Below, one piece after another: positions 7,421 through 34,113 of a stretch of DNA of 44,403 nucleotides. The DNA is from Deltaproteobacteria bacterium (lineage in GTDB: Bacteria > Desulfobacterota > DSM-4660 > Desulfatiglandales > Desulfatiglandaceae). The DNA lies in contig JAIPDI010000044.1 of NCBI GenBank assembly GCA_021737785.1, positions 1 to 44,403 of the forward strand, read 5' to 3'. Positions within the stretch are counted from its first letter, which is position 1. Each line of letters opens with the position of its first letter. Below the pieces are notes generated by a model. That model had not been told where the DNA came from. It ran no database searches and saw only the letters and a program-made list of their open reading frames with translations. The position numbers and the translations under genes are program-made.

Positions 7421-7636
7421 TCGGGTAAATAATAATGGCTGCTTTTTCCTAATTATGGGGATGTCACAGTGGTGCTTTTCACGAAAGCATTACGGATGGA
7501 GATGTCACCGTTATTTGCAGTTTATTTATGCAACCCAGGGAGTTTACTCAGACACGGAAAGGGGGTGGGTACATATTCCAACGGTTTTGAAGATTCATTC
7601 GAACAATTGAACTAATTCCTAAAGGAGGTTTTTTTG

Positions 7637-8185
7637 ATGAAAAGACTAGTTGTACTGGCGCTTGCCATCGTTTTTGTCATCGGTACCGCGGGCTTTGCCC
7701 TTTCACAAGATTTGGGTGCTAATGAAAAGGCATTTAACAACGAAATTGGAAGCCTGGTTCCCAAGGATCGCATCGTCAATGCCGAGCAGTTCCATAAGGT
7801 CTGGGAAGACGTCATGGCCGGGAAAAGCAATGCCTGGCTCATCGATGTGAGGACCGATACGGAATTTGAGGCCTTTCATATCGAGGGAACGAACCATGTT
7901 CAGGCCGGACACTGGTATACGATTCCCAAGAAGATCACCGACCCGAACGCGGAGATATATATCTGGTGCCGCACCAAGCATCGGGCAAAGTATATCGCCG
8001 GCTTCCTGACCAAGATCGGCTATAAGAACGTCTACCTGTTTGACGGCGGTGTAGTCGGCTGGGCCGCGGCAGGATATCCCTTTGTCAATGCCGTTACCGG
8101 CGAATTCACGATCAACAAATATAGAAAGAGCCCCTCCGACGCGGAAAAATCATTTAAGTGGCGTTTCTGGAACGCTTTTAAATAA
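7637..8185 (+). CDS. Exported single-domain rhodanese-like protein
   Basis: 182 residues. An N-terminal signal peptide (basic MKRL, hydrophobic core, likely cleavage after FALS) is followed by one rhodanese domain. The domain has the fold landmark WLIDVRTDTEFEAFHIEGTNH and the active-site loop IWCRTKHRAKYI, in which Cys111 would carry a persulfide (or selenide). It should act in the periplasm; it has no lipobox. The ATG at 7637 has an ideal AAAGGAGGT seven bases upstream, whereas a TTG at 7634 would not. It has its own promoter and leader and ends in a strong terminator. Secreted rhodaneses accompany extracellular cytochrome genes in the Geobacter ext clusters, and a pentaheme cytochrome lies 700 bases on. 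Confidence 0.9.
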   Translation: MKRLVVLALAIVFVIGTAGFALSQDLGANEKAFNNEIGSLVPKDRIVNAEQFHKVWEDVMAGKSNAWLIDVRTDTEFEAFHIEGTNHVQAGHWYTIPKKITDPNAEIYIWCRTKHRAKYIAGFLTKIGYKNVYLFDGGVVGWAAAGYPFVNAVTGEFTINKYRKSPSDAEKSFKWRFWNAFK

Positions 8186-8200
8186 AGCCTGATATGCTGC

Positions 8201-8241
8201 CGCACCCCCCGGACACCCTTTGCTGGTGTCCGGGGGGTGCG
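8201..8241 (+). terminator. Very stable transcription terminator
   Basis: CGCACCCCCCGGACACC (8201-8217) and GGTGTCCGGGGGGTGCG (8225-8241) pair perfectly over 17 bp around a 7-base loop, shortly after the rhodanese stop. The tail is only TGTTTA. Part of this hairpin resembles the terminator found after the helicase gene at 12609-12635 and belongs to the same duplicated segment. Confidence 0.8.
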
Positions 8242-8263
8242 TGTTTAGGGCCTATGCATCCAG

Positions 8264-8343
8264 TTAATACCCGATATTTCTGTATCCCGCACGCCGCCTC
8301 CCAAACATCTTGGCCAGCATAGGGAAATTCAGGTCGGCATAGG
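8264..8343 (-). pseudogene. Stray 3' end of a TOTE-type helicase gene
   Basis: Read on the minus strand, this piece encodes YADLNFPMLAKMF, a short divergent stretch, then AGYRNIGY followed by TAA. It matches the last codons of the intact helicase gene at 12653-15112 (YADLNIPMLAKMY ... VGYRNIGYELDV). By eye the two differ at about 8 of 79 bases. The similarity extends past the stop through the terminator (about 8207-8262 against 12605-12662). Beyond 8343 the match ends. It is a fragment of a second helicase copy in the same orientation, not a gene. Confidence 0.8.
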
Positions 8344-8430: not shown

Positions 8431-8592
8431 ATGCTCCTGAACGGCTATCGAAAAGAGATTTTTCGACCCAAATGCAATCCGGGATTCGAGTCGGTTCACT
8501 GCATCGCCCATCTGGACCAGGATATCGGGGAGGCCTTTCCCTATCAGAACGAGGAACTGGGGGGCTTACAAGGACAAGAAGATGACACTTAG
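8431..8592 (+). pseudogene. Truncated N-terminus of a deltaproteobacterial Fe-S protein
   Basis: 53 codons from an ATG with GGAGG five bases upstream to TAG. The opening MLLNGYRKEIFRPKCNP and VHCIAHLDQDI resemble the start of a protein of about 170 residues, common in sulfate reducers, that ends in a four-cysteine iron-sulfur motif (this is from memory of the family). The match stops around NEELGG, after which only a dozen foreign residues follow, and the Fe-S part is absent. The TAG overlaps the start of the next gene by 11 bases. Most likely an internal deletion joined this 5' end to the 3' part of the next gene; a genuine small protein is possible. Confidence 0.5.
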
Positions 8593-8830
8593 TGTTTCGA
8601 TATCTGAAACCATTTGTTACTGCTTCGGTTATACCACCGAAGACATCCGGAACGATCTCCTGCAACATGGCCGCTCCACCATCCTGGAGCGGATTGAAAA
8701 GGAAAAGAAGGCCAACGGATGCAATTGCGCCGCCAATAACCCCAAGGGGAGGTGATGCCTTCCGGATGTTCACCGGGTGGTGAACGAAATCAGGGGTGAC
8801 CGACAACCTATTGCCGGGAGGGTGTCGTGA
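8582..8830 (+). CDS. BFD-like [2Fe-2S] protein (CopZ C-terminal type), candidate selenoprotein
   Basis: From the ATG at 8582 (AAGGA seven bases upstream) the frame runs 57 codons to a TGA at 8753-8755 and then 24 codons to TGA at 8828. The first part, ICYCFGYTTEDI ... GCNCAANNPKGR, is the BFD-like [2Fe-2S] domain found at the end of CopZ-type proteins. In relatives the next residues are Cys-Cys-Leu; here TGA-Cys-Leu-Pro-Asp-Val follows, so TGA stands where a ligand cysteine is expected. A 7-bp hairpin 12 bases after the TGA has the features of a bacterial SECIS. The parsimonious reading is selenocysteine at residue 58 of 82. The usual N-terminal half of CopZ-like proteins is absent, so the gene may be a deletion derivative. 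Confidence 0.65.
8768..8785 (+). promoter_or_regulatory. Bacterial SECIS element (selenocysteine insertion)
   Basis: GUUCACC (8768-8774), loop GGGU (8775-8778) and GGUGAAC (8779-8785) form a perfect 7-bp hairpin inside the coding sequence. The loop begins 19 bases after the TGA at 8753-8755 and starts with G, in line with the known bacterial rule (apical loop 16-37 bases after UGA with a G among its first two bases). Confidence 0.7.
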
Positions 8831-8879: not shown

Positions 8880-10112
8880 ATGAAGCTTGTACAGTCCTTT
8901 TGCATGGCGATGCTTCGCAGCAAGTGCTTCGCAGGGGTGTGTTGCCTCGCATTCTTCGGTATCGTCTTATTGATGAACTCCCCTCTGGGCGCCTCGGATA
9001 ACCAGGCCCAATCCTTGAAAGAACTGCTTACATGGTACGATACCTCTCGGTGCAAAGAGTGCCACGAAGAAATCTATGCCCAGTGGGAGAAATCCCACCA
9101 TGCCAGGTCCATCATGGATATTTTTATGGATGGGTATCTCAAGAAAGGGGTCCTTGCCGTCAAGAACCCGAATGAGGCTACGCGAAAGAACTTCCCCTGC
9201 TTTAAGTGCCATTTTCCTCATCTCGACCATGCCTCTGACAAAGTGGCCTCCGAAATCGCTGCAGCAATCCTAAACCAGGATCAGGCAACCATGAAGAAGC
9301 TGAACATCAACTGTCTGGTCTGTCACCGGGACATGGGTATTGTCCACGGATTTCCGAAAGCGGACGTCCTTTATGGCAAGACGGATGTGGAGGACCATCC
9401 TGACGACGGTTTTAAGGAGGTGCACAAGAGCCCTGTCATGACCCAATCGGCCATGTGCGGTCAGTGTCATGGACTGGGCCCGGTTTTCGATTTCGAGTAT
9501 CCGGTTCAGTGCGCCACGCTGTATGGAAGCTACCTCCACGCCTACGTCCCTGCAGGAGGGACACAGACCTGCCAGGAATGTCACATGGAAAAGGCCGACC
9601 ATACCTGCCCGCCCAACTTCAAGGATCGCACGGACACGTCCAGACGGCTGGCCGAGGCCCTCCCCATGGACGTGACGGCCATGTTCTACCGGCCCCAGAT
9701 CGACCCCGGCAAACTGGTTCCCACCGTGCTTGTGGAGACCCGAATTACCAGCAGGGCCGGCCATCGCATTCCGGACGGGTGACCGTCCAAAAACCGCCTG
9801 GTCCTGGATGTGACCATCAAAGACGATACAGACCGGACGCTCTATGCAAAGCGCAAGGTCTACATGCCCCAGTCCACCGATTCCCTGAATAACGCCATGG
9901 TCTATGGCCCCACGCATAAGCTCGGAATTATTCGAGACACGAGCATCCAGCCCTTTGCCCCGAAGACAGAGACCTTCGAGGCCTCCATACCCGAGGGCAT
10001 CGGCCAGGTGCGGGTCATTGTGGAGTTGAGTTATCAGCCCCGCCCGGGCGACGTGTATCCCATCCATCACCAAACCATGGAACTTGAGTCAGGCAAGGAG
10101 AGCACACCATGA
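8880..10112 (+). CDS. Pentaheme c-type cytochrome with in-frame TGA, candidate selenoprotein
   Basis: The frame runs from the ATG at 8880 (GGAG eight bases upstream) through a TGA at 9780-9782 to the TGA at 10110, 410 residues in all. After a signal peptide come five CXXCH heme sites: Cys58, 107, 145, 193 and 231. A C-terminal beta-rich domain follows. The TGA is codon 301 in AGHRIPDG-TGA-PSKNRLVLDV; the frame stays open with sensible coding for 109 codons on the far side, so both halves belong to one protein. Selenocysteine is the best explanation because the gene directly before it also has a TGA with a good SECIS. A recent nonsense mutation is the alternative. It should be a periplasmic or cell-surface electron carrier. 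An upstream in-frame ATG (8844) is a possible start. Confidence 0.7.
9799..9816 (+). promoter_or_regulatory. Weak candidate SECIS hairpin
   Basis: TGGTC (9799-9803) pairs with GACCA (9812-9816) around an 8-base loop that starts 21 bases after the TGA at 9780-9782. Allowing a C-U mismatch and a U-G pair, the apical loop becomes GGAU, which has the required G. The spacing suits a bacterial SECIS but the stem is short. Confidence 0.35.
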
Positions 10113-10225
10113 AGACAGAACGACTCGACGGAAACATATGGCGGGCCGTCTGGCAGTCCGGAGCAATGGTTGCCCTGGCCATCTTCATCCCTTTGACCCT
10201 GGCCCCGCATCATCGCATCGAATAG
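10109..10225 (+). pseudogene. Truncated membrane protein N-terminus
   Basis: 38 codons starting in the ATGA overlap with the cytochrome stop. The sequence has a short charged start (MKTERLDGNIWRAVW) and one hydrophobic helix (GAMVALAIFIPLTLAP), then stops at HHRIE. Translational coupling to the cytochrome suggests that the intact gene was part of the same operon. What is left looks like the signal-anchor of a longer periplasmic protein whose remainder was deleted. The bases from 10226 to 10376 hold no gene. Confidence 0.4.
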
Positions 10226-10376: not shown

Positions 10377-10799
10377 TTAGTGAGAGGCGAGAAAATCGAG
10401 GATTTCGGCTGCGAATTTTCTCAGATCATTAACGTCGTGGCCAAGAATGCCAATGACGATTTCCGGGTCAATCCGGGCATAGTCGTGAACCACGATATTC
10501 CGGAACTGGGCCATCTTCTTCATAGCCGCCCCCACTGGACCCGAAATGATACGGTTTTCATGCAGGACGCTAAAGAGATCCTTGTTGTCTTTCGGGACTC
10601 GCAACGCCTTGCGTGAGACGAGATGGGCAGCGATATCAATGCAACACTCGCAAGCCAGGTGAAGCGTGCGTTCGACGAAGCGCTGGTCTTTCTTGCTGGC
10701 CGTGTAGTTCGACAGCGTGATGTCGCGGTATTCGGCAAGATCTTGGAGATACTCCTGAAGATGGCGCAACTTCGATTGGATCACGTCCTTGTCAATCAT
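10377..10799 (-). CDS. hepT: HepT-like HEPN ribonuclease toxin
   Basis: 140 residues, a helical HEPN protein of the DUF86 group. The catalytic RNase motif Rx4HxY is present as RNIVVHDY in the last third. In characterised systems HepT is inactivated when the partner MntA adds AMP to the tyrosine of this motif. The gene follows and overlaps its nucleotidyltransferase partner by eight bases, the normal arrangement. Length is normal and the frame intact. Confidence 0.9.
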   Translation of the reverse strand: MIDKDVIQSKLRHLQEYLQDLAEYRDITLSNYTASKKDQRFVERTLHLACECCIDIAAHLVSRKALRVPKDNKDLFSVLHENRIISGPVGAAMKKMAQFRNIVVHDYARIDPEIVIGILGHDVNDLRKFAAEILDFLASH

Positions 10800-11247
10800 G
10801 GGCGGTTGCTCCGAAATAGCACTTCATCTGATCGAAATCTCTTTCAAGGTAATGCCTAAAATCAAAATATTCTTTCTGTTTCAGCAACTTGAAGTTATCT
10901 TCGTCTTCGATGTCCCGGATAAATACGGGTATACCATAGGAAAATATCTGATTAAGCATAATGAGTGCGACATCGTTAATCAAAACAACGTCCACGGCAC
11001 GATCAACCAGTTTCTCGATTCGGTCAATCAGTTCAAGCCGTATCTGAAAGCGCTTTTCTGCGGAGAGGTCCGGGACAAGCCGCACGGCAATGTCCATGTC
11101 GCTCCCCTTACGGGCGTGGCCGGTGACCGTCGAGCCGAACAGGTAGCCCGAGAGGACCTCAGGATAGGACTCGATGACTCGGGCCAGCTTTGAAAGCAGG
11201 GGCGCTGTCAGGGTTATGTTTTTGTTATCAAGTGTCATGCTTGTCAT
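10792..11247 (-). CDS. mntA: MntA-like nucleotidyltransferase antitoxin
   Basis: 151 residues. The minimal nucleotidyltransferase signature is GYLFGSTVTGHARKGSDMDI, that is GS-x10-DxD, with the two metal-binding aspartates in SDMDI and a third acidic residue expected in AVDVVLI. Such proteins are the antitoxins of HepT and act by AMPylating it. The first gene of the pair; its stop overlaps the hepT start. Start codon choice among the early ATGs (MTSMTL) is open by three residues. Confidence 0.9.
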   Translation of the reverse strand: MTSMTLDNKNITLTAPLLSKLARVIESYPEVLSGYLFGSTVTGHARKGSDMDIAVRLVPDLSAEKRFQIRLELIDRIEKLVDRAVDVVLINDVALIMLNQIFSYGIPVFIRDIEDEDNFKLLKQKEYFDFRHYLERDFDQMKCYFGATAHD

Positions 11248-12608: not shown

Positions 12609-12635
12609 CCCGGACGAACAGCATTTGTGTCCGGG
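12609..12635. terminator. Bidirectional terminator between converging genes
   Basis: CCCGGAC (12609-12615) pairs with GTCCGGG (12629-12635), and ACA/TGT can extend the helix across a bulge. It lies between the TauE/SafE stop and the helicase stop, which converge, and is the parent form of the hairpin also found at 8201-8241. Confidence 0.6.
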
Positions 12636-12652
12636 AGGTGCCCGTTTAAAAT

Positions 12653-15112
12653 CTACACATCCAGTTCATACCCGATATTCCTGTATCCCACACGCCGGCG
12701 CTCATACATCTTGGCCAGCATAGGGATATTCAGGTCGGCATAATCGAAAATAATCACTTCACTCTTGCCTTCGTGGTTCCGGTGGAGACGACCGGCGTAC
12801 TGGGCCAGTGTCCCCCGCCAGGAAACCGGTAATGCCAGAAAGAGGGTGTCCAGCCGGGCATCGTCGAATCCCTCGCCCAGATACCTGCCGGTGGCGATAA
12901 TCAGCCTCTCTTCTCCATCCTGAATGCGGGCCAGCTCCTCCGAAGCGACACTCCTCTGCCTGACGCCCATGCCGCCTTTAAGGACGATCATGTTCCTGAC
13001 AAGAGACCCGAGCCGGCCTGCAAGAAGCTCCAGATGATCCCGTCGTTCCGTCAGCAGGACCGGAGATCGACCCTGAGCAACCGTCCTCACCACGTCCTGA
13101 ATAATCATGTCGTTCCGGGCCTCGTCTCCGATGAGGGCCTTGTAGAGTTCATGAATAGGCAGGTCTGGTCTCTCCGCCAAGACCTTCGGCAGCATAAATC
13201 CGGTCCTCCGGAGGATAACCCTGTGCCCGAAGGGCCGTTTTTCCGCCTGCTTCCGGTCATCCACCCGGAACCTGACAGGTCCGCACTGCATGAAGATAAT
13301 CGGATGGTGGCCGTCTTTCCGGGTCACCGTGGCCGAGAGCCCGGTGACATACCTGGCCTTGCTCTGTCTGGCCACCAGTTCAAAGCTCCTGGCCGCGATC
13401 CCGTGGCACTCGTCAACCATCAGATACCCGTATTCCCCCACAATATCATCCACCACCCCTTTTGTGCCAAGGCTCTGAATGATCCCCACGTCGATGCGGC
13501 CCGACGGCTCGCGCCTTCCCCCGCCGATCCGGCCGATCTCTCGAGGTTCGATACCCAGAAACCGGCTCAGCCGATCCACCCACATATCCAGCAAATGCTT
13601 GCGGTGCACCAGGACAAGGGTGTTTACCCCTCTCGCCGCCATGAGATAGGCAGCCACAACGGTCTTTCCAAAGGCTGTTGACGCGGAAAGGACCCCGGTG
13701 TCGTGGTGCAACAGTGCCTCTGCCGCGGATTGCTGCTCAGGTCTGAGCCTTCCATGAAAAGAAAGATCTACAGGGTTGCCCCCGAAGCGTTTGTCCACGA
13801 CGGTCGTCTGAATCTTCAGGGAATGGAGCAGATCGAGGACCTCCTCCAGACACCCCCGGGGGATTCCGATATGCCTGGAGAATTCCTCACAGCAACTGAT
13901 GATATGTGGCTTGTCATAGGTGGGGAAGCGCATGGCCTGGGCCTTGTAAAACTCAGGGTTTTGAAAGGCGGCAAGGCGAATCATCCGATTTCTCAACGGG
14001 GCTGTCAGGGCCTCTTTTGCCACGTAGATCTGGTTTTCCAGGACCAGCTCGATCGCTTCCGGCAAAGGGCCGGAAATGGGCGCCCGCTCCCGCCGTCTGG
14101 AGGGAGGGAGGGTCCATGGCTCGTCATCCTCCTCATCGGTAACCGCCATCCGCACCCCCACCACGCGGCCTCGCCGCATGGCCTCGTCAACAAGGGCCCG
14201 GACCGCATCAAGATCCATCCGCCGGATCGACGACAGAAAGGCCCACTGGTCCGGGTGGGGTTCAAAACGATCATCCACAAAGAGGCTGTTTCCCTGTTCC
14301 CGGGCCCTTTTCTGCAGCGGAAGCGCAATGAGATTTCCAAAGCCCCCCTTTGGCAGGGTATCCTGACTGGGGAACAGCCGGTCATAGGAACGAAGGCCCA
14401 GTTCCGAACGCCGGTCCATGGTCTCGGTCAGGATAAAAGAGTACATCTTTCGCGCCACAGCAGCAGGCACGGGCCCGGAGAAAAAGGTCCATACATGCCC
14501 GCCGTTGCCGGATCGGGAACGCTCCGCAGCGGCCGGCACATCAAACCGCCTGCACGTCTCCACAAACTGGAACACGTCCGCGGTCCAGTCCGCTTGATCG
14601 AAGTCCGACGCGATGAACCAGCAGGTCTCATCCGGCAAGAGCGGGTACACCCCGATGGTAAAATCCCGATCACTCTTCTTTTCAGGATCACGGCCCAGGA
14701 GGTGGTTCCTGACAACCTCATCCGTAAGCGGAGAGAATTTCTGGTTGGGACAATTGCCGCATCGGACCGCAGGCTTCCGGCATATTCCCCTGATCCATTC
14801 ATTGCGGCACACCGGCTGGTAGCCGCTCTTCCCTGTCTTTTTGCTCTCGAACCGCCTCGGGTAGACATCCTCCCGGCCCCTGAAAAGCGCCCGGAACAAC
14901 CGGATCTTGTCCGCCTCCGAAGACTGGTTCGTCACGAATGGCTGGCCCTCCACCGGCGCATATCCGGGAGGGGCCTCTGCCACGCACAACCTGTTCTTTT
15001 CCGCCCTCAGGGTCTTGAGCCGCTCCAAGGCCTCGGCCCGGCGCTGATCCAAATCCGCCAGTCCCCTTTCAATGGCCTCAATCTCCCGGTCGATATCTCC
15101 AATTTTAGGCAC
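12653..15112 (-). CDS. TOTE-type archaeo-eukaryotic primase fused to an SF2 helicase
   Basis: 819 residues. Order of parts: coiled coil (1-45); a Cys cluster (102, 111, 118, 121) likely to bind zinc; an AEP primase domain with ASDFD (Asp170, Asp172) and NGGHVWTFF (His206); and a C-terminal SF2 helicase with Walker A STAFGKT (about 477-483), DECH box (567-570), SATVTRKDG, and a C-terminal half with GRLHRN. This architecture is the central protein of the so-called TOTE conflict systems and of related mobile elements; it is thought to act on DNA or RNA of invaders or in copying an element. No other TOTE partner is next to it. The start is GTG inside a repeat. A second copy left its 3' end at 8264-8343. 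Confidence 0.85.
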   Translation of the reverse strand: MPKIGDIDREIEAIERGLADLDQRRAEALERLKTLRAEKNRLCVAEAPPGYAPVEGQPFVTNQSSEADKIRLFRALFRGREDVYPRRFESKKTGKSGYQPVCRNEWIRGICRKPAVRCGNCPNQKFSPLTDEVVRNHLLGRDPEKKSDRDFTIGVYPLLPDETCWFIASDFDQADWTADVFQFVETCRRFDVPAAAERSRSGNGGHVWTFFSGPVPAAVARKMYSFILTETMDRRSELGLRSYDRLFPSQDTLPKGGFGNLIALPLQKRAREQGNSLFVDDRFEPHPDQWAFLSSIRRMDLDAVRALVDEAMRRGRVVGVRMAVTDEEDDEPWTLPPSRRRERAPISGPLPEAIELVLENQIYVAKEALTAPLRNRMIRLAAFQNPEFYKAQAMRFPTYDKPHIISCCEEFSRHIGIPRGCLEEVLDLLHSLKIQTTVVDKRFGGNPVDLSFHGRLRPEQQSAAEALLHHDTGVLSASTAFGKTVVAAYLMAARGVNTLVLVHRKHLLDMWVDRLSRFLGIEPREIGRIGGGRREPSGRIDVGIIQSLGTKGVVDDIVGEYGYLMVDECHGIAARSFELVARQSKARYVTGLSATVTRKDGHHPIIFMQCGPVRFRVDDRKQAEKRPFGHRVILRRTGFMLPKVLAERPDLPIHELYKALIGDEARNDMIIQDVVRTVAQGRSPVLLTERRDHLELLAGRLGSLVRNMIVLKGGMGVRQRSVASEELARIQDGEERLIIATGRYLGEGFDDARLDTLFLALPVSWRGTLAQYAGRLHRNHEGKSEVIIFDYADLNIPMLAKMYERRRVGYRNIGYELDV

Positions 15113-16428: not shown

Positions 16429-17471
16429 GTGAAACCGACCCAAGAACAACAGGCCATACTGGATTTGACAGGGAGGGTCCTTCTGCTCAACGCAAGGGCG
16501 GGGACCGGGAAGACCACCACCCTTCAAATGATCGCCTCCGCCCATCCGGATCTGAAGATCCTTTACCTGGTCTTCAACCGGAAGGCCAGAGAGGAGGCGC
16601 GTGGAAAGTTTCCAAGGAATGTGGAGGTCCGTACGGTCCATTCCCTAGCCTTCTCCAAGAATGTCGGTCAGATTGGCAACTTCACTATCGCCGACATGCT
16701 CCAGGCCTTCAAGGGACGACAGAATGCCCAGCAGCTCGCCGCGGTAAGCCATGATCTGGTCGAATTCTTTATGAATTCGCCGTTCCCCAAGATCGAGGAG
16801 GCCATGGACCTGTTTCAGGCAGAGCACCTCGGCCATCTCAGCGATGAAATGAAGGCGTCCGTTCAAGACCACCGGGATCGGATCGTTGAGGCAGGCAGGG
16901 AGATCTTGGGGCAATGGTACCGGACATCACGGCTTCCCTGTCGAAACCGGAGGCCCTCTTGACCCACGCATTCGGCGACGAGGCCAACATCGCCTATGTG
17001 GCCTTCACCCGCGCAATCCAGGACCTCTATCTCCCCCCGGACTTCAAAGACATTCTCACCCCCGCGTGGCAGGCGGCCATGAAGCAATATGAACCATCCC
17101 CACCTCCCAAGATCTCCCATGCCCCTCAGCCCAAACGTTCACGGACAGAATTCCGTGCCTTTTCAAGTACCCGATCCGGCCCCTCGACACCCAAGGCCCC
17201 CGAGCCCAACGCGCCACGCAAGAAACGCTTCAAGGTCGGGGACAGGCCCGCCCTGGCGCGACTTACCTCACCTTGAATTCAGGATTTCGGCTTGTGTCGC
17301 GTATTAGATTGGCCTCTGCAACTGACAAAGGAAATCAGGTCTGGGCCAGGGGTGAAAACGAGTCACGGAACAGGGACCGTCGTAGAGATTGATGGCGAGA
17401 AATATCTGGTGGATCTGCATGGGCAGAGAGCTAAGCTTTGGACAAAGGAATGGGCGCTTCGAAAAGCCTGA
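16429..17471 (+). pseudogene. UvrD/PcrA-type helicase gene with a deleted middle
   Basis: The first 160 or so codons are a normal UvrD N-terminus with the Q-motif TQEQQAIL, Walker A NARAGTGKTTTL and motif Ia. Near 16905 the frame changes and jumps directly to the C-terminal helicase motif IAYVAFTRAIQDLYLP (frame of 16914), so motifs II to V are missing (several hundred residues in the family). A TGA at 17274 and about 80 non-family bases interrupt the linker, and the last piece (17352-17471) encodes a Tudor-like tail, GTVVEIDGEKYLVDLHGQ. At least one large deletion and one stop make the gene non-functional. The 180 bases after it contain nothing recognisable. Confidence 0.8.
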
Positions 17472-27697: not shown

Positions 27698-30600
27698 TCA
27701 TAAACCCTGCTCGTCTTTCTTAAGCCTGGGCCGTTTCCAGATGTCATATATGACCGGAAGAATGACCAATGTCAGCAGGAGGGCGGAAAACAGTCCGCCG
27801 ACCATGGGCGCCGCGATCCTTTTCATTACCTGGGAACCGGTAGCAGTGCCCAGCATCACCGGCATCAGTCCCATAATGGTTGTGGATACGGTCATCAGAA
27901 CCGGTCGTACCCTTTCTGCAGCCCCTTCGACAATGGCTGCATGAAGGTCATCCGGGGTATGCATCCCTTCTTCAGCACTTCGCCTGGAAAATGCTTCATC
28001 CAAATAGGTCATCATCACCACCCCTGTTTCCGCAGCAAGGCCGGCGAGGGCAATGAAGCCGACCATCACAGCCACGGAAATATTATACCCCAGAAGGTAG
28101 AGAAGCCAGATGCCGCCGACGAGGGAAAAGGGGAGGCCCAGCATCACGATGCAGGACTCACTGACGCTGTTGAAGTGGAGGTAGAGAAGGACGAACACGA
28201 TGATCAAGGTGAGTGGAAGGATAATCTTCAACCGCTGCCGCGCCTTTTCCATGTATTCATACTGTCCGGACCAGATGATGGAATACCCCGGCGGAAGCTG
28301 TATTTCCTGTGAAAGAACACTCTTTGCCCGGTTTACGTAGGAGCCCACATCCACGCCTTTGAGATCCACATAGATCCAGGCATTCATGCGCGCGTTTTCT
28401 GTTTTGATGCCGGGCGGTCCCTTGTGAATGGAAATGTCCGCAAGCTGGGCCAGCGGCACGTGGGCGCCAGTAGGCGCGGCGACCAGGACCCGGTTCAGCC
28501 GTTCGATGTTGTCGCGAAGCTCGCGGCTGTAACGGACATTCACCGGATACCGTTCGAGCCCTTCCACGGTCGTGGTCACGTTCATCCCTCCGATGGCGGA
28601 CATGATGACGTCCTGAACATCCCCCACGGTCAGCCCGTAACGGGCAATCTCATAGCGGTTGATATCAAAGTCAAAATAGTTCCCGCCTGCCACCCGTTCC
28701 GAGTATACTGAAAGGGTCCCCGGTATGCCGCGTATGACGGATTCAATCCGGGCGCCGATGTCGGAGAGGGTCTCCAGCTCCGGACCGATCACCTTGATGC
28801 CCACGGGGGTCTTGATGCCCGTTGAGAGCATGTCGATGCGTGCCTTGATCGGCATGGTCCAGGCATTGGTAACGCCGGGAAATTTGACCGCGGCATCGAG
28901 ATCTTCGACCAACTCTTCCATGGTGACATATCGTTTTTCAGGCCAGATCCAGGCGAGGGGCTTCTTGAGATATTCAGGCCAGCCGGAAAAGAACCGGTCG
29001 ACGTCCTTCTTCCGCCATTCCTGCAGGATACGTCCCTTTTTCTCCTCGGGCCAGATCCAGGTAAGCGGTTTCTTCAGCCATCCGCGCCAGGAAGAAAAAT
29101 ACCGTTTCACGGCGATTTTCTCATAATGGACCTGAGGCCGAAGTTCTACGAGGGTCTCGATCATGGAAAGGGGGGCCGGATCCGTGGCCGTCTCGGCCCG
29201 TCCGATTTTCCCCAGGGTATGGAGGACTTCAGGAAAGCGCTGGATGATCTTGTCCGTCTGCTGGATCAATTCCCGGGCCTTTGTGATGGAAATCCCCGGG
29301 AGGGTCGTGGGCATGTAAAAGATGGTCCCTTCCATTAGAGGCGGCATGAATTCGCTTCCCAGCCGGCTCAAGGGGTAAACGGTTAAACAGAGGATCAGGA
29401 GGAACAGGAGTAACGTCATTTTGGGCCATTTCAGGACCCGCCGGATCACCGGTATATAGGTACGAACGAAAAACCGGCCGAGAGGGTTTTTGGCTTCGGG
29501 GATCATTTTTTGAGGCAGGAGGCAGAACACAAGGAAAACAGAGACTCCCAGGGCCGCTACAAGGCTCCAGTCGGGAAGATTCATTCCTCCCAGCCCGGCG
29601 ATGACCACCAGGAGCGGAGGCCCCGCCGTCGCCAGAATCCAGGTTCCGAGGCGCCGGCGACGGCTTGTATGGGAAGAGAACACGTTGTCCATTACAAAAA
29701 AACTCATCAAGACCGGAATAAACGTAATCGCAAGGAGGGAAGAGGCCAGCAGGGCAAAAACCCAGGTGTAGGCGAGCGGTTTGAAGAGACGGCCAGACTG
29801 GGCCTGGAGTGCGAAGACCGGCAGAAAGGAGACCGTGATGATCAGCAGGCTGCTGAACAGTGCCGGTCCCACTTCTTTCGCGGCTTCCTGGATAACCTCG
29901 ATATGGGGTTTTTGGCCCTGATTTCGTTCGAGATGTTTGTGGGCGTTTTCCACCATGACCACCGAAGCGTCCACCATCACGCCGATGGCGATGGCAATCC
30001 CGCCCAGGCTCATGATGTTGGCGTTGACCTTTATGGCATACATAATCAGAAGTGAGATCAGGATTCCTACCGGCAATGTGATGATGGCTACGAAAGCGGA
30101 ACGGAAATGGATCAAGAAGACCATGCAGACCACTGCCACGATGATCATTTGGAGGGTCAGAGCCCCAGTCAAGGTATCAATGGATCGCTGGATGAGTGCC
30201 GATCGATCGTAGGCCCATTCAATCTCAACGCCTTCGGGCAGGGAGTTTTCGAGCTCCCGGAGCCTCTTTTTCACATTCCTTATGACTTCCATGGCATTTT
30301 CACCGAACCGCATGACGATAATGCCGCCGACGGTTTCCCCCTCCCCCTTCCATTCCAGAATGCCCCGGCGAAGCTCCGGCCCCAATTTTACATTAGCGAC
30401 GTTTTTCAGCAGGATGGGGGTGCCGTAACGGTCCGTACCCAACGTAATGGACTCAAGATCTTCCTTCGACTGAATATAACCGAGCCCCCGGACCATGAAT
30501 TCGGTTTCCGCCATCTCAATGAGCCTGCCGCCGACATCGTTGTTGGAGCGCTGAATGGCGTGCCGAAGGTTTTGAATGGACAGATCATAGGCCAGCAGCT

Positions 30601-31183
30601 TGTTGGGATCCACTTCCACCTGGTACTGCTTGACAAAACCGCCGACACTTGCCACCTCGGATATCCCCGGGACAGCGGCTAATTCGTAACGAAGGAACCA
30701 GTCCTGGATGCTTCGAAGCTGCTGGAGATCGTGTGTGCCCGTGGGATCCGTTAAAATATACTCGTACACCCACCCTACGCCCGTGGCGTCCGGGCCGAGA
30801 GTGGGAGTCACCCCTTTCGGCAGCCGGCCTGCCACGAAGTTCAGATACTCCAGAACGCGCGAACGGGCCCAATACATGTCGGTACCGTCTTCAAAGATAA
30901 TGTAGACAAATGAAAATCCGAAAAAAGAGTATCCCCGGACCACCTGGGCGTAGGGCACCGCCAGCATGGCCGTGGTCAGGGGATAGGTCACCTGGTCTTC
31001 CACCACCTGGGGGGCTTGTCCCGAAAATTCGGTAAAGATAATCACCTGCACATCGGAGAGATCGGGGATCGCATCTATGGGAATATTCAACATGGCCAGT
31101 GTGCCGCCGACGGTTGCGAACAGCACAGCCAGCACGACCATAAAGCGGTTTCTGATTGAATATTCTATGATCTTTTCAATCAT
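27698..31183 (-). CDS. cusA: CusA/CzcA-type heavy-metal RND efflux pump
   Basis: 1161 residues, longer than E. coli CusA (about 1047). All RND landmarks are present: the first helix, the PN/PC porter repeats, and the proton-relay helix IAIGVMVDASVVMVENAH. Met-containing segments typical of Cu/Ag pumps (YMPTTLPGIS and ARIDMLSTGIKTPVGIK) argue for a monovalent metal. The extra length comes partly from a duplicated Trp-rich segment at 28932-29118. It exports metal from periplasm or cytoplasm through CusB and a TolC-like channel using proton flow. The gene starts seven bases after the adaptor stop. Confidence 0.92.
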   Translation of the reverse strand: MIEKIIEYSIRNRFMVVLAVLFATVGGTLAMLNIPIDAIPDLSDVQVIIFTEFSGQAPQVVEDQVTYPLTTAMLAVPYAQVVRGYSFFGFSFVYIIFEDGTDMYWARSRVLEYLNFVAGRLPKGVTPTLGPDATGVGWVYEYILTDPTGTHDLQQLRSIQDWFLRYELAAVPGISEVASVGGFVKQYQVEVDPNKLLAYDLSIQNLRHAIQRSNNDVGGRLIEMAETEFMVRGLGYIQSKEDLESITLGTDRYGTPILLKNVANVKLGPELRRGILEWKGEGETVGGIIVMRFGENAMEVIRNVKKRLRELENSLPEGVEIEWAYDRSALIQRSIDTLTGALTLQMIIVAVVCMVFLIHFRSAFVAIITLPVGILISLLIMYAIKVNANIMSLGGIAIAIGVMVDASVVMVENAHKHLERNQGQKPHIEVIQEAAKEVGPALFSSLLIITVSFLPVFALQAQSGRLFKPLAYTWVFALLASSLLAITFIPVLMSFFVMDNVFSSHTSRRRRLGTWILATAGPPLLVVIAGLGGMNLPDWSLVAALGVSVFLVFCLLPQKMIPEAKNPLGRFFVRTYIPVIRRVLKWPKMTLLLFLLILCLTVYPLSRLGSEFMPPLMEGTIFYMPTTLPGISITKARELIQQTDKIIQRFPEVLHTLGKIGRAETATDPAPLSMIETLVELRPQVHYEKIAVKRYFSSWRGWLKKPLTWIWPEEKKGRILQEWRKKDVDRFFSGWPEYLKKPLAWIWPEKRYVTMEELVEDLDAAVKFPGVTNAWTMPIKARIDMLSTGIKTPVGIKVIGPELETLSDIGARIESVIRGIPGTLSVYSERVAGGNYFDFDINRYEIARYGLTVGDVQDVIMSAIGGMNVTTTVEGLERYPVNVRYSRELRDNIERLNRVLVAAPTGAHVPLAQLADISIHKGPPGIKTENARMNAWIYVDLKGVDVGSYVNRAKSVLSQEIQLPPGYSIIWSGQYEYMEKARQRLKIILPLTLIIVFVLLYLHFNSVSESCIVMLGLPFSLVGGIWLLYLLGYNISVAVMVGFIALAGLAAETGVVMMTYLDEAFSRRSAEEGMHTPDDLHAAIVEGAAERVRPVLMTVSTTIMGLMPVMLGTATGSQVMKRIAAPMVGGLFSALLLTLVILPVIYDIWKRPRLKKDEQGL
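28932..29118 (-). repeat. Internal duplication within the CusA-like gene
   Basis: Two copies of a segment encoding W..(L)KKPL(T/A)WIWPE, with the upstream YFSSW/RFFSGW part, lie in tandem (about 29042-29118 and 28932-29003 on the minus strand). Relatives have one such segment. It falls in the periplasmic porter domain. Confidence 0.75.
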
Positions 31184-31190
31184 GGGCCTG

Positions 31191-32621
31191 TCAATGACCT
31201 GGATGGGGGGTCTCTTTGCCTTCTATTGGCGTCTTAGTTTCCCCCTCCATTGATTTTCCATTATTCATATCCGCGCGTTTGGGTTCCATCATCTGCTGCA
31301 CCGCCTCTGTGAGGTCGGACTCCGAATCGATCAGGAACTGGCCCGAAGTGACAATCACCTCCCCCGGGGCAAGTCCGGATAAAACCTGAAACTCTGTGTT
31401 CATCTGAAGGCCCAGGGTCAGGTCCCGGGGTTCGAATTTGTTGTTTTCCCTTACCACAAAGGCGACGTTGCGTTCTCCGGAGCGGATGACCGCCTCCGAA
31501 GGAACCACAATCCCTTCTCCTTGATCGCTTTTTATGATGATGTCGCAGTACATGTCGGGTTTGAGTGTAAAATTCGGATTGTCGAATTCCAGCCGCACCA
31601 CCACATCGCGTGTTTTCTGCTGAAGGTACGGGTAAACAAAAGAAACCTTGCCGGAATAGGTCCTTCCCGGAAAGTAGGGAAGGGTCATTTCCGCTTCCTG
31701 GCCCTGTGACACCCACGGCAGTTCGTATTCGTAGATGTGGGCTTCGACCCAGATCCGCGAGAGATCTGCGATCCGATAGACCGTGGTGCCGGTCCTTATA
31801 TAAGTGCCCGCCTCAGCGTTTTTTTGGATCACCACGCCGTTGAACGGGGAGCGGAGAGTGAGGGTCTTTTTGAGCTTTCCGGATTTCTCCATGGCACGTA
31901 TTGCGCTTTCCGGTATGTCGAAATACCGGAGCCTCTCGCGGGCGGATTCCAGCAGATCCAGGTTCTTCCTGCCGTGGCGGGTAAAATTTAGATAAGCGGC
32001 AAGATACTCCTGTTGGGCGGAGAAAAGCTCCGGCGAATACAGGTCAAAAAGCGGCTGGCTCTTTTCCACAAATTTTCCGGTAAAATCCACATGTATTTTC
32101 TCAATCCAGCCGCTGACCTTGGGACTGATCTCGGCGGTTCGCGTTTCATCGTAAGTGATATTCCCGTATGTCCGTATGGTTCGAACCAGCGGCGCCTTCT
32201 CCACCCGGGCAGTTCTAATGCCCATATTCTGCTGAACGACCGGGTCGATGCGCACATCAACACCATCCACCAGTTCGTCCTCGTAGACGGGCACCAGATC
32301 CATCCCCATGACACTTTTTCCGGGTTGGTCGTAGACCTCCGTGGGATTCATCGGAGAACGCCAGTAGGCCACCTTTCTTTCCTCTTTTTCTGGGATTGTC
32401 TTTTCCGCGGTTTCATGAGAAATCTCCAGATATCCCAACAGATAAGCGCCGCCGCCCCCGATCAGAAGGGTAAGCGCTGCGGTGATGAGTACCACCCAAA
32501 ATGATGGGATGCCTTTTTTATCCGGTGTTTTTGTCGTCAAATTCAAACTCCCAGCAGCTTTCTCATGGTTCCTTCTATCGGAGGGTCGTTCCCACCACCT
32601 GCTCCAGATTTGCCCAGGCAA
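31191..32621 (-). CDS. cusB: CusB-like periplasmic adaptor (membrane fusion protein)
   Basis: Up to 476 residues. One N-terminal anchor helix (FWVVLITAALTLLIGGGGAY), a heavy-metal-binding segment (KVAYWRSPMNPTEVYDQPGKS with VMGMDLVPVY; relatives have YxCPMHP, here the Cys and His are Trp-Arg and Asn), then barrel-sandwich and alpha-hairpin domains and the C-terminal beta-barrel. The loss of Cys and His leaves Met residues as possible Cu(I) ligands. The ATG at 32621 would overlap the previous gene by 47 bases; TTG codons at 32546 or 32540, after GGGAG, are likelier starts. Confidence 0.85.
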   Translation of the reverse strand: MPGQIWSRWWERPSDRRNHEKAAGSLNLTTKTPDKKGIPSFWVVLITAALTLLIGGGGAYLLGYLEISHETAEKTIPEKEERKVAYWRSPMNPTEVYDQPGKSVMGMDLVPVYEDELVDGVDVRIDPVVQQNMGIRTARVEKAPLVRTIRTYGNITYDETRTAEISPKVSGWIEKIHVDFTGKFVEKSQPLFDLYSPELFSAQQEYLAAYLNFTRHGRKNLDLLESARERLRYFDIPESAIRAMEKSGKLKKTLTLRSPFNGVVIQKNAEAGTYIRTGTTVYRIADLSRIWVEAHIYEYELPWVSQGQEAEMTLPYFPGRTYSGKVSFVYPYLQQKTRDVVVRLEFDNPNFTLKPDMYCDIIIKSDQGEGIVVPSEAVIRSGERNVAFVVRENNKFEPRDLTLGLQMNTEFQVLSGLAPGEVIVTSGQFLIDSESDLTEAVQQMMEPKRADMNNGKSMEGETKTPIEGKETPHPGH

Positions 32622-34113
32622 TGCCGAAATCGCTACGCTTTCTCTCGAGGGTCAGGGTTGCCTTCAACCACGTGGTATAAGCATCGATCACATCGGCGAA
32701 CGCAACGTTTCCGGCGACGTAACTGCGTGTGGAGACATCCAATGCCGATCTCGAGAGCTGTACCACGTCGTCGTAATAAAGCGCTCTTTCACGCCGTGCC
32801 AGGTCCAGTTGAAACCAGGCGTATCGGACCCTGGTACGGGTCGCCGCTTCGGTTTTCGCCAGATCTTCCCTAAGCGCGTGAAGTTGTTGCCGGGTTTCGC
32901 GAATATATGCATCTTCGATCCCGTACCAGGGCATCTTGGGAAGTCCCGCTCCCCTTGAGGCTTCTGTTTTGATCGGGAAGGTATTCTGTTGGGCAAAAGA
33001 GCCGACTTGGTTGACCGCCTCGTCCTCATAAAGAGAAGAGTTCAAGGTATAGGGTGGAAGGATCATGGTTTCGGCCATCTCAATCATCAACTCCATCTTG
33101 CTGATCCGGTCCCGCAGACGTCGAAGTTCCTGACGGTGCTGTTGAGCGATCCCATAGAGATCCTTGAGCATGGGGATCTCTGCGGAAGGTGTTCGAATTT
33201 CCGGGGTCCCGAGTTTGACGCCGGGAGGAAGGTTTAAGATTTCCCGGATCTTCGAATCAAAATTGTGTTGCTGCTCTCCGAGCGTGTTCAGATCCTCATG
33301 CAGGGTTTCCCGGTGGATGCGGACCTTGATCACGTCCTGGTAGCTGGTTTTTCCCGCTTCGTATCGACTCTGGACGACCGCATCCAATTGTTCGAGAAGC
33401 TCGAGCATCTCGGAGGTGATCCCCATGCCTTTAATGACATATATCAGGTTCCAGTATGCTTTCCGAATCGCCGTGACAGCATCCCTGCGAACCGCTTCCA
33501 GGCTCTCCCTTTCGGCTCTGATCTCCCGGTCCACGATTTCACCCTTTAACGCCATCACACCCGGAAAAGGGAATTTAAGTTTCATCGGCTCTTTTCCTCT
33601 CATGGGACCGACTCCCGGCATAAGATCTTCCGTAAACGCGGTATACTTGCGAAGGATTTCATCCAGGGCGCCTACCTGGGTAAACGCTTCAATTGCGCCT
33701 CGCAGCCGATCCTCTGCCGCTTTCACCCCGGGGTTTCGCAGCACTGTCAGTGTTTCAAGTTGTTTTAACGAATAGGTGCCCTTTATGGCAGCTGCCGCTG
33801 CATCTGTGTGGGTTTGAGCCGGTTTAAGAAATTCAACGAGTTTAGGGTCGGGAACCAGAAAACTGCCCTCATCGCTTCCGGTCTTCAGTGCCTTTTCCCA
33901 TCCGGCTTTCATCTCCTCAAGCCGTTTTTGTTGGGCGTCAAATGCGCTGTCGGTGACCGGATGTTCCGGTTCAGGTCCAGATCCGAATTGATCCACGAAA
34001 TAGGCAGGGGGCCGATACGATTCATATTCGTTTTTCAGCTCACGGTACCCGGCGCAGACCGGATTTGTCATCGAAAAGGCCAGGCAGAAAATGACAATGC
34101 TCTTTCTGTTCAT
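32575..34113 (-). CDS. TolC-family outer-membrane protein 1
   Basis: 512 residues with a cleavable signal peptide (NRKSIVIFCLAFSMTNPVCAG). Two OEP repeats, each with long helices (RGAIEAFTQV to RKAYWNLIYV, and the second LRDRISKMELM to RVRYAWFQLDLARRE), are the TolC pattern. It would provide the exit duct for the RND pump. Starts in an ATGA overlap with the second TolC-like gene, so both are made from the same mRNA. Confidence 0.85.
   Translation of the reverse strand: MNRKSIVIFCLAFSMTNPVCAGYRELKNEYESYRPPAYFVDQFGSGPEPEHPVTDSAFDAQQKRLEEMKAGWEKALKTGSDEGSFLVPDPKLVEFLKPAQTHTDAAAAAIKGTYSLKQLETLTVLRNPGVKAAEDRLRGAIEAFTQVGALDEILRKYTAFTEDLMPGVGPMRGKEPMKLKFPFPGVMALKGEIVDREIRAERESLEAVRRDAVTAIRKAYWNLIYVIKGMGITSEMLELLEQLDAVVQSRYEAGKTSYQDVIKVRIHRETLHEDLNTLGEQQHNFDSKIREILNLPPGVKLGTPEIRTPSAEIPMLKDLYGIAQQHRQELRRLRDRISKMELMIEMAETMILPPYTLNSSLYEDEAVNQVGSFAQQNTFPIKTEASRGAGLPKMPWYGIEDAYIRETRQQLHALREDLAKTEAATRTRVRYAWFQLDLARRERALYYDDVVQLSRSALDVSTRSYVAGNVAFADVIDAYTTWLKATLTLERKRSDFGIAWANLEQVVGTTLR

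Follow-up and report, generated by a model that had tools for sequence, protein, structure and literature searches.

Introduction

The earliest proposal that we found of the selenoprotein family discussed here dates from 2007, when an unknown readthrough cluster, 'cytochrome c family protein', was assembled from GSU2937 and GSU2936 of Geobacter sulfurreducens; neither a SECIS element nor a homologue without selenocysteine (Sec) was found, and the lack of a SECIS kept open the option of two separate genes (PMC1914089). The name ExtKL came later (PMC6148476, PMC5877670), and a 2026 review of prokaryotic selenoproteins includes the family (PMC13188914). ExtKL has been put forward for selenite reduction, within a cluster for selenite and tellurite reduction (PMC5877670), with which the NCBIfam names agree; in Geobacter, loss of extI impairs the reduction of both oxyanions, the involvement of ExtKL being quoted only as preliminary (PMC5877670). 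The structure of a selenoprotein homologue, MccSep ('Multiheme cytochrome c selenoprotein'), has been solved (PDB 9wt8; further entries 9wta and 9wtb, with the U325A mutant as 9wt9 and 9wtc); no open-access paper on MccSep was found.

Here we compare with these systems a gene and its surroundings in a stretch of 44,403 nucleotides of deltaproteobacterial DNA, referred to as the window.

Results

A pentaheme cytochrome gene with a single in-frame TGA

The gene and its elements are as follows.

8880 to 10112, + strand: predicted ExtKL/MccSep-family pentaheme c-type cytochrome selenoprotein, 410 aa with TGA read as Sec
9051 to 9065, + strand: heme motif 1, CKECH, residue 58
9198 to 9212, + strand: heme motif 2, CFKCH, residue 107
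9312 to 9326, + strand: heme motif 3, CLVCH, residue 145
9456 to 9470, + strand: heme motif 4, CGQCH, residue 193
9570 to 9584, + strand: heme motif 5, CQECH, residue 231
9780 to 9782, + strand: in-frame TGA, predicted codon of Sec301, motif GHRIPDG-U-PSKNR
9799 to 9816, + strand: SECIS-type hairpin UGGUC-CUGGAUGU-GACCA, beginning 16 nt after the UGA, apical loop CUGGAUGU

A single TGA interrupts an otherwise open frame which, when this codon is read as U, encodes 410 residues and terminates at a second TGA (10110-10112). The first-pass annotation had described two halves in one frame split by a TGA at 9780, and both its coordinates and its residue number, 301, are correct. In-frame GTG codons provide an alternative start for the gene at 8796 and a second one, past the TGA, at 9810. 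The protein begins with a hydrophobic segment and carries five CXXCH motifs, as do nearly all complete homologues; in each of the five, both Cys and the His are invariant in alignment A2. Residues from about 263 to 405 are beta-rich in an AlphaFold2 model that is weak overall (pLDDT 63), and Foldseek matches of this domain are of the Ig-like/ApaG type only, so that the initial description of a five-heme protein with a C-terminal beta domain holds. Near the hemes and in the Sec loop, the model is not reliable enough for Sec to be placed relative to heme, and it was set aside for that purpose; the geometry proposed below is conjectural.

The protein matches the NCBIfam family NF040886, 'multiheme c-type cytochrome (seleno)protein ExtKL', with 429.6 bits (curated cut-off, 250 bits) over residues 32-402. 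Among solved structures, MccSep 9wt8 is the nearest in sequence (E = 1e-64, window residues 36-371), and its Sec325, shown as X in the PDB sequence, aligns with the TGA of the window gene; MccSep has insertions that the window protein does not have, between window residues 79 and 140. With ExtKL of G. sulfurreducens (GSU2937-GSU2936) the window protein has in common the five CXXCH motifs, the in-frame TGA and the domain that follows it, and its identity to most of the Desulfuromonadales and Desulfobulbaceae members that were read is 35-40%. Thus, the window protein is a member of a named and structurally solved selenoprotein family, not a new kind of protein, and the mention, in the first-pass annotation, of a class of CXXCH-containing (seleno)proteins in Geobacter-type genomes was right.

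When the window gene was compared with that of a same-genus relative (L047), dN/dS was 0.145 for the part before the TGA and 0.194 for the part that follows. The ratio stays low past the TGA, which argues that the second half is selected as protein; because, in addition, one family profile spans residues 32-402, the two open halves are not a chance arrangement.

Conservation of the TGA and its exchange with cysteine codons

The genome from which the window comes encodes the Sec machinery, with selA (617 bits), selB (397 bits) and tRNA-Sec (73.6 bits) all above the cut-offs. In the first two homologue searches, the site was TGA in 37 of 37 ExtKL homologues, several of which are overlapping records of one genome, and Ile or Cys in four distant relatives; the peptide patterns used to scan these 37 homologues did not span the Sec site. 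Among 395 genomes of the phylum, 42 of the 49 ExtKL copies over the cut-off contain exactly one TGA. The site itself was read in 36 cases of the phylum-wide sample: 29 have TGA, four have a Cys codon (TGT) and read straight through the site, and three have Val or Ile, the last being tandem or divergent copies, one of them a repeat reading of the same place. Selenoproteins are typically recognized by such an exchange of Sec and Cys within one alignment column. GHxIPDGUP, the segment that contains the stop, ranks among the best conserved parts of the C-terminal half, and the Sec loop GHxxPDG-U is invariant. Hence, the comparison that the first-pass annotation called for, of Cys or U at the site and of the TGA in related strains, came out in favor of Sec, the same codon being shared by the same-genus relative and dozens of other genomes.

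Cys (TGT) stands in place of Sec in the homologues L156, L157, L158 and L159. Tandem ExtKL copies, with Ile or Val in a degraded PDS[IV]SSN loop, occur in L157 and L160/L146. The Cys-site copies and the Ile/Val copies (L156-L159, L160/L146) are possibly subfunctionalised paralogues.

A SECIS-type hairpin supported by comparison

A SECIS-type hairpin with a G in its apical loop lies just 3' of the UGA, and comparison across the family supports it. The family consensus, UGGUC-CUGGAWGU-GACCR, corresponds to window positions 9799-9816. Among 31 distinct sequences, 92.9% of the hairpin cells pair, with compensatory changes from G-C to A-U (three sequences) and from C-G to G-C or U-A, and pairing drops to 23-67% when one arm is slid as a control. 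The observed pairing was reached in none of 2000 synonymous-codon randomisations (34 sequences, with the kinship of the sequences ignored). In an additional set, all five pairs are complete in 24 of 29 TGA copies and in none of 6 non-TGA copies. The named helix is incomplete in some TGA copies (e.g. L140, L132 and L139), and the Desulfuromonas/Desulfuromusa-type group has a shifted stem, CCGAC/GUCGG, with the loop UGGUUCU.

The SECIS had been called weak in the first-pass annotation, which is a fair description of the single-sequence fold (z about −1, unremarkable; stem expected by chance in the window sequence with p of about 0.16) but not of the comparison among homologues, where the support is strong. 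Folding, suggested there as a check for the 40 bases past the TGA and carried out on 40-60, gave an ambiguous minimum free energy (MFE) result with a rival hairpin closer to the TGA; this rival was set aside in favor of the hairpin at 9799-9816, which is conserved across the family and covaries. An Rfam search of the region returned nothing meaningful.

An upstream CopZ-like selenoprotein

The gene immediately upstream has the same feature.

8582 to 8830, + strand: predicted short 2Fe-2S CopZ/BFD-like selenoprotein, 82 aa, with Sec58 at TGA 8753-8755 (NPKGR-U-CLPDV)
8768 to 8785, + strand: SECIS-type hairpin of this gene, GUUCACC-GGGU-GGUGAAC

The open reading frame reads MTLSVSISETICYCFGYTTEDI...GCNCAANNPKGR-U-CLPDVHRVVNEIRG, and its product resembles CopZ N-terminal/BFD 2Fe-2S proteins; in a weak match to CopZ of A. 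fulgidus (2hu9), the U aligns with the first of the two Cys in the NPSGRCC motif. A homologue was found in 22 of 85 genomes of the class, and every matched stretch contains one or more TGA codons; TGA occupies the Sec site in all the homologues read there (20 distinct sequences from the class were aligned). The 7-bp hairpin, 12 nt past the TGA, is well conserved and shows a C-G/U-A double change, in keeping with the good SECIS that the first-pass annotation had noted in the adjacent gene. Being a short form of 82 aa, the protein scores below the curated cut-offs of both NF047645 and NF045877. A (2Fe-2S)-binding CopZ-family selenoprotein, form 1, with the motif GxUC, has been tabulated (PMC13188914), and the window protein has G-R-U-C at the corresponding place; the CopZ-like selenoprotein is, accordingly, also known in kind.

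Genomic setting

The features around the two genes are as follows.

7634 to 8185, + strand: exported rhodanese-domain protein, upstream, with no match to ExtH reported
8226 to 8341, + strand: 116-bp direct repeat, left copy, upstream of the CopZ-ExtKL block
8431 to 8589, + strand: remnant of an Fe-S (PF04060-type) gene, about 412 bp lost, intact in relatives
10109 to 10225, + strand: remnant of an exported rhodanese gene, downstream, 38 codons, intact in L047
11349 to 11738, + strand: ArsR/SmtB-type metalloregulator, with a homologue near the start of the relative's operon
12627 to 12742, + strand: 116-bp direct repeat, right copy, forming the 3' end of the TOTE primase-helicase gene

The ExtKL gene of the window lies outside an extHIJKLMNOPQS cluster, the usual location in Geobacteraceae, and has none of the extHIJ...MNOPQS neighbors found in G. 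sulfurreducens; this is a matter of context and does not define the protein family. In Desulfuromusa (L059), ExtKL lies inside a full ext cluster (ExtH, I, M, N, P, Q and S), whereas neither ExtI nor ExtM was found over the cut-off in the genome of the window.

In the same-genus relative L047, the operon comprises ArsR, a permease, an ArsE-type thioredoxin, ArsM with a TGA, a fusion ending in a thioredoxin domain, a thioredoxin lipoprotein-like gene, a CcdA-like gene, the Fe-S protein, CopZ-Sec, ExtKL, an exported rhodanese and a DoxX-like gene. The first part of such an operon is present elsewhere in the genome of the window, at C1, with CcdA 94% identical; the C1 operon is without the 3' part of the Fe-S gene, CopZ and nearly all of ExtKL, and the window carries the missing block. 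This C1 region (L126, C1:119000-133500) is colinear with L047 and of the arsenic/thiol-redox type, and a deletion in it joins the N-terminus of the Fe-S protein to the last codons of ExtKL. The arsenite methyltransferase ArsM of L047 (4212-5021) has its in-frame TGA where a Cys codon is usual (YTG-U-VAGA), and the ArsM copy at C1:128647-129429 also has one TGA.

The two 116-bp repeats are 85% identical and flank the CopZ-ExtKL-ArsR-TauE block, which looks like a moved segment. No further copy of the repeat was found elsewhere in the genome, suggesting that the end of the TOTE gene (12653-15112, − strand) was the insertion site of the block. The setting in the window, remnants of an arsenic/thiol-redox-type operon between direct repeats, is unusual.

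Other genes in the window

Inside the repeat-bracketed block, two overlapping open reading frames on the − strand (10377-10799 and 10792-11247) look, as judged by eye, like a HEPN/MNT nucleotidyltransferase toxin-antitoxin pair. At 27698-34113 (− strand), there are CusA/CusB-like heavy-metal RND efflux genes (ACR_tran, HlyD_D23) with adjoining outer-membrane-factor-like frames. A helicase fragment (AAA_19) at 16429-16962 (+ strand), in a gene-poor stretch with broken frames, is probably pseudogene debris.

Discussion

The first-pass suggestion of selenocysteine at residue 301 is supported because several lines of evidence bear on it: membership in the family, the alignment with the solved Sec homologue MccSep, the selA, selB and tRNA-Sec genes, the TGA/Cys exchange, the constraint past the TGA and the hairpin that tracks the TGA. 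From these comparisons, the gene almost certainly yields one protein with Sec at this residue. The first Geobacter annotation would instead make it two, an extK ending at the TGA and an extL after it in a conserved operon, and the in-frame GTG at 9810, like the option left open in 2007 when no SECIS had been found (PMC1914089), would suit such an arrangement. However, few residues of the C-terminal half are as well conserved as those flanking the stop, four Cys homologues continue through the site, the presence of the hairpin follows the TGA, and a selenoprotein homologue has been solved; separate genes were thus rejected, given also the low dN/dS past the TGA and the conservation of the TGA across the phylum, and we consider them highly improbable. 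A nonsense mutation or a decaying pseudogene confined to this genome might be imagined from the truncated genes of the same cluster next to ExtKL in the window, but its likelihood is negligible: it is refuted by the presence of this TGA in dozens of other genomes as well as in the same-genus relative, and dN/dS is low both before and after the codon.

Taken as a whole, the observations are best explained, with high confidence, by an exported pentaheme Sec cytochrome of the ExtKL/MccSep family, the UGA of which is decoded via the hairpin. In such a scheme, strongly suggested by the sequence features, SelB would bring Sec-tRNA to the UGA, aided by the hairpin 16 nt downstream, and the two halves would be translated as one protein. 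This would be exported to the periplasm and have five hemes attached at the CXXCH sites, followed by the C-terminal immunoglobulin-like beta domain. The invariant His295, six residues before Sec301 in the GHxxPDG-U loop, may be a distal heme ligand, and Sec301 may act as a redox or substrate-binding group. By analogy with the family, Sec301 would most likely act as the reactive group in a periplasmic reductase supplied with electrons by the heme chain; judging from the Geobacter work, a chalcogen or metalloid oxyanion, for instance selenite, may be the substrate. ExtKL of Geobacter was described as periplasmic (PMC6148476) and has been detected in outer- and inner-membrane fractions, as cited in PMC5877670; the cell-surface location first proposed for the Sec residue is, therefore, not supported.

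For the protein in the window, we put an oxyanion-reductase role, carried over by analogy, at about an even chance. The function in Geobacter may not carry over because ExtI and ExtM were not found over the cut-off, and this copy of ExtKL could be losing its role because the neighboring operon genes are truncated. A Sec cytochrome with a different job in this lineage, in periplasmic thiol or arsenic redox chemistry and not selenite reduction, is unlikely; it would accord with the ArsR-permease-thioredoxin-ArsM(Sec)-CcdA-rhodanese operon around the relative's copy (gene order in L047 and L048), the ACR3-like transporter in L048, the ArsM with an in-frame TGA at C1, the ArsR gene near ExtKL in the window and the lack of ExtI and ExtM matches over the cut-off, whereas the protein shares its heme motifs and Sec loop with Geobacter-type members, and the gene neighborhood, known here from sequence, is no more than suggestive. 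It is quite doubtful that the cytochrome of this lineage belongs functionally to an ArsR-associated operon with ArsM-Sec and CopZ-Sec, where it would serve arsenic or thiol chemistry as a periplasmic redox partner dependent on Sec, apart from the selenite-type ext system.

Standard gene callers cut such genes at the TGA, and the protein and its Sec are, consequently, easily missed. The 2007 cluster rests on the same TGA (PMC1914089); the SECIS that could not be found at that time, and the Cys homologues that were not available, are supplied here by comparison and, together with the divergent genomic setting, are what the present analysis adds. The ExtKL family is seen here outside the ext cluster, beside arsenic-type genes, and its substrate is thus a testable question that is not settled by the Geobacter name; given the arsenic/thiol-type neighborhood, another substrate in this lineage is possible.
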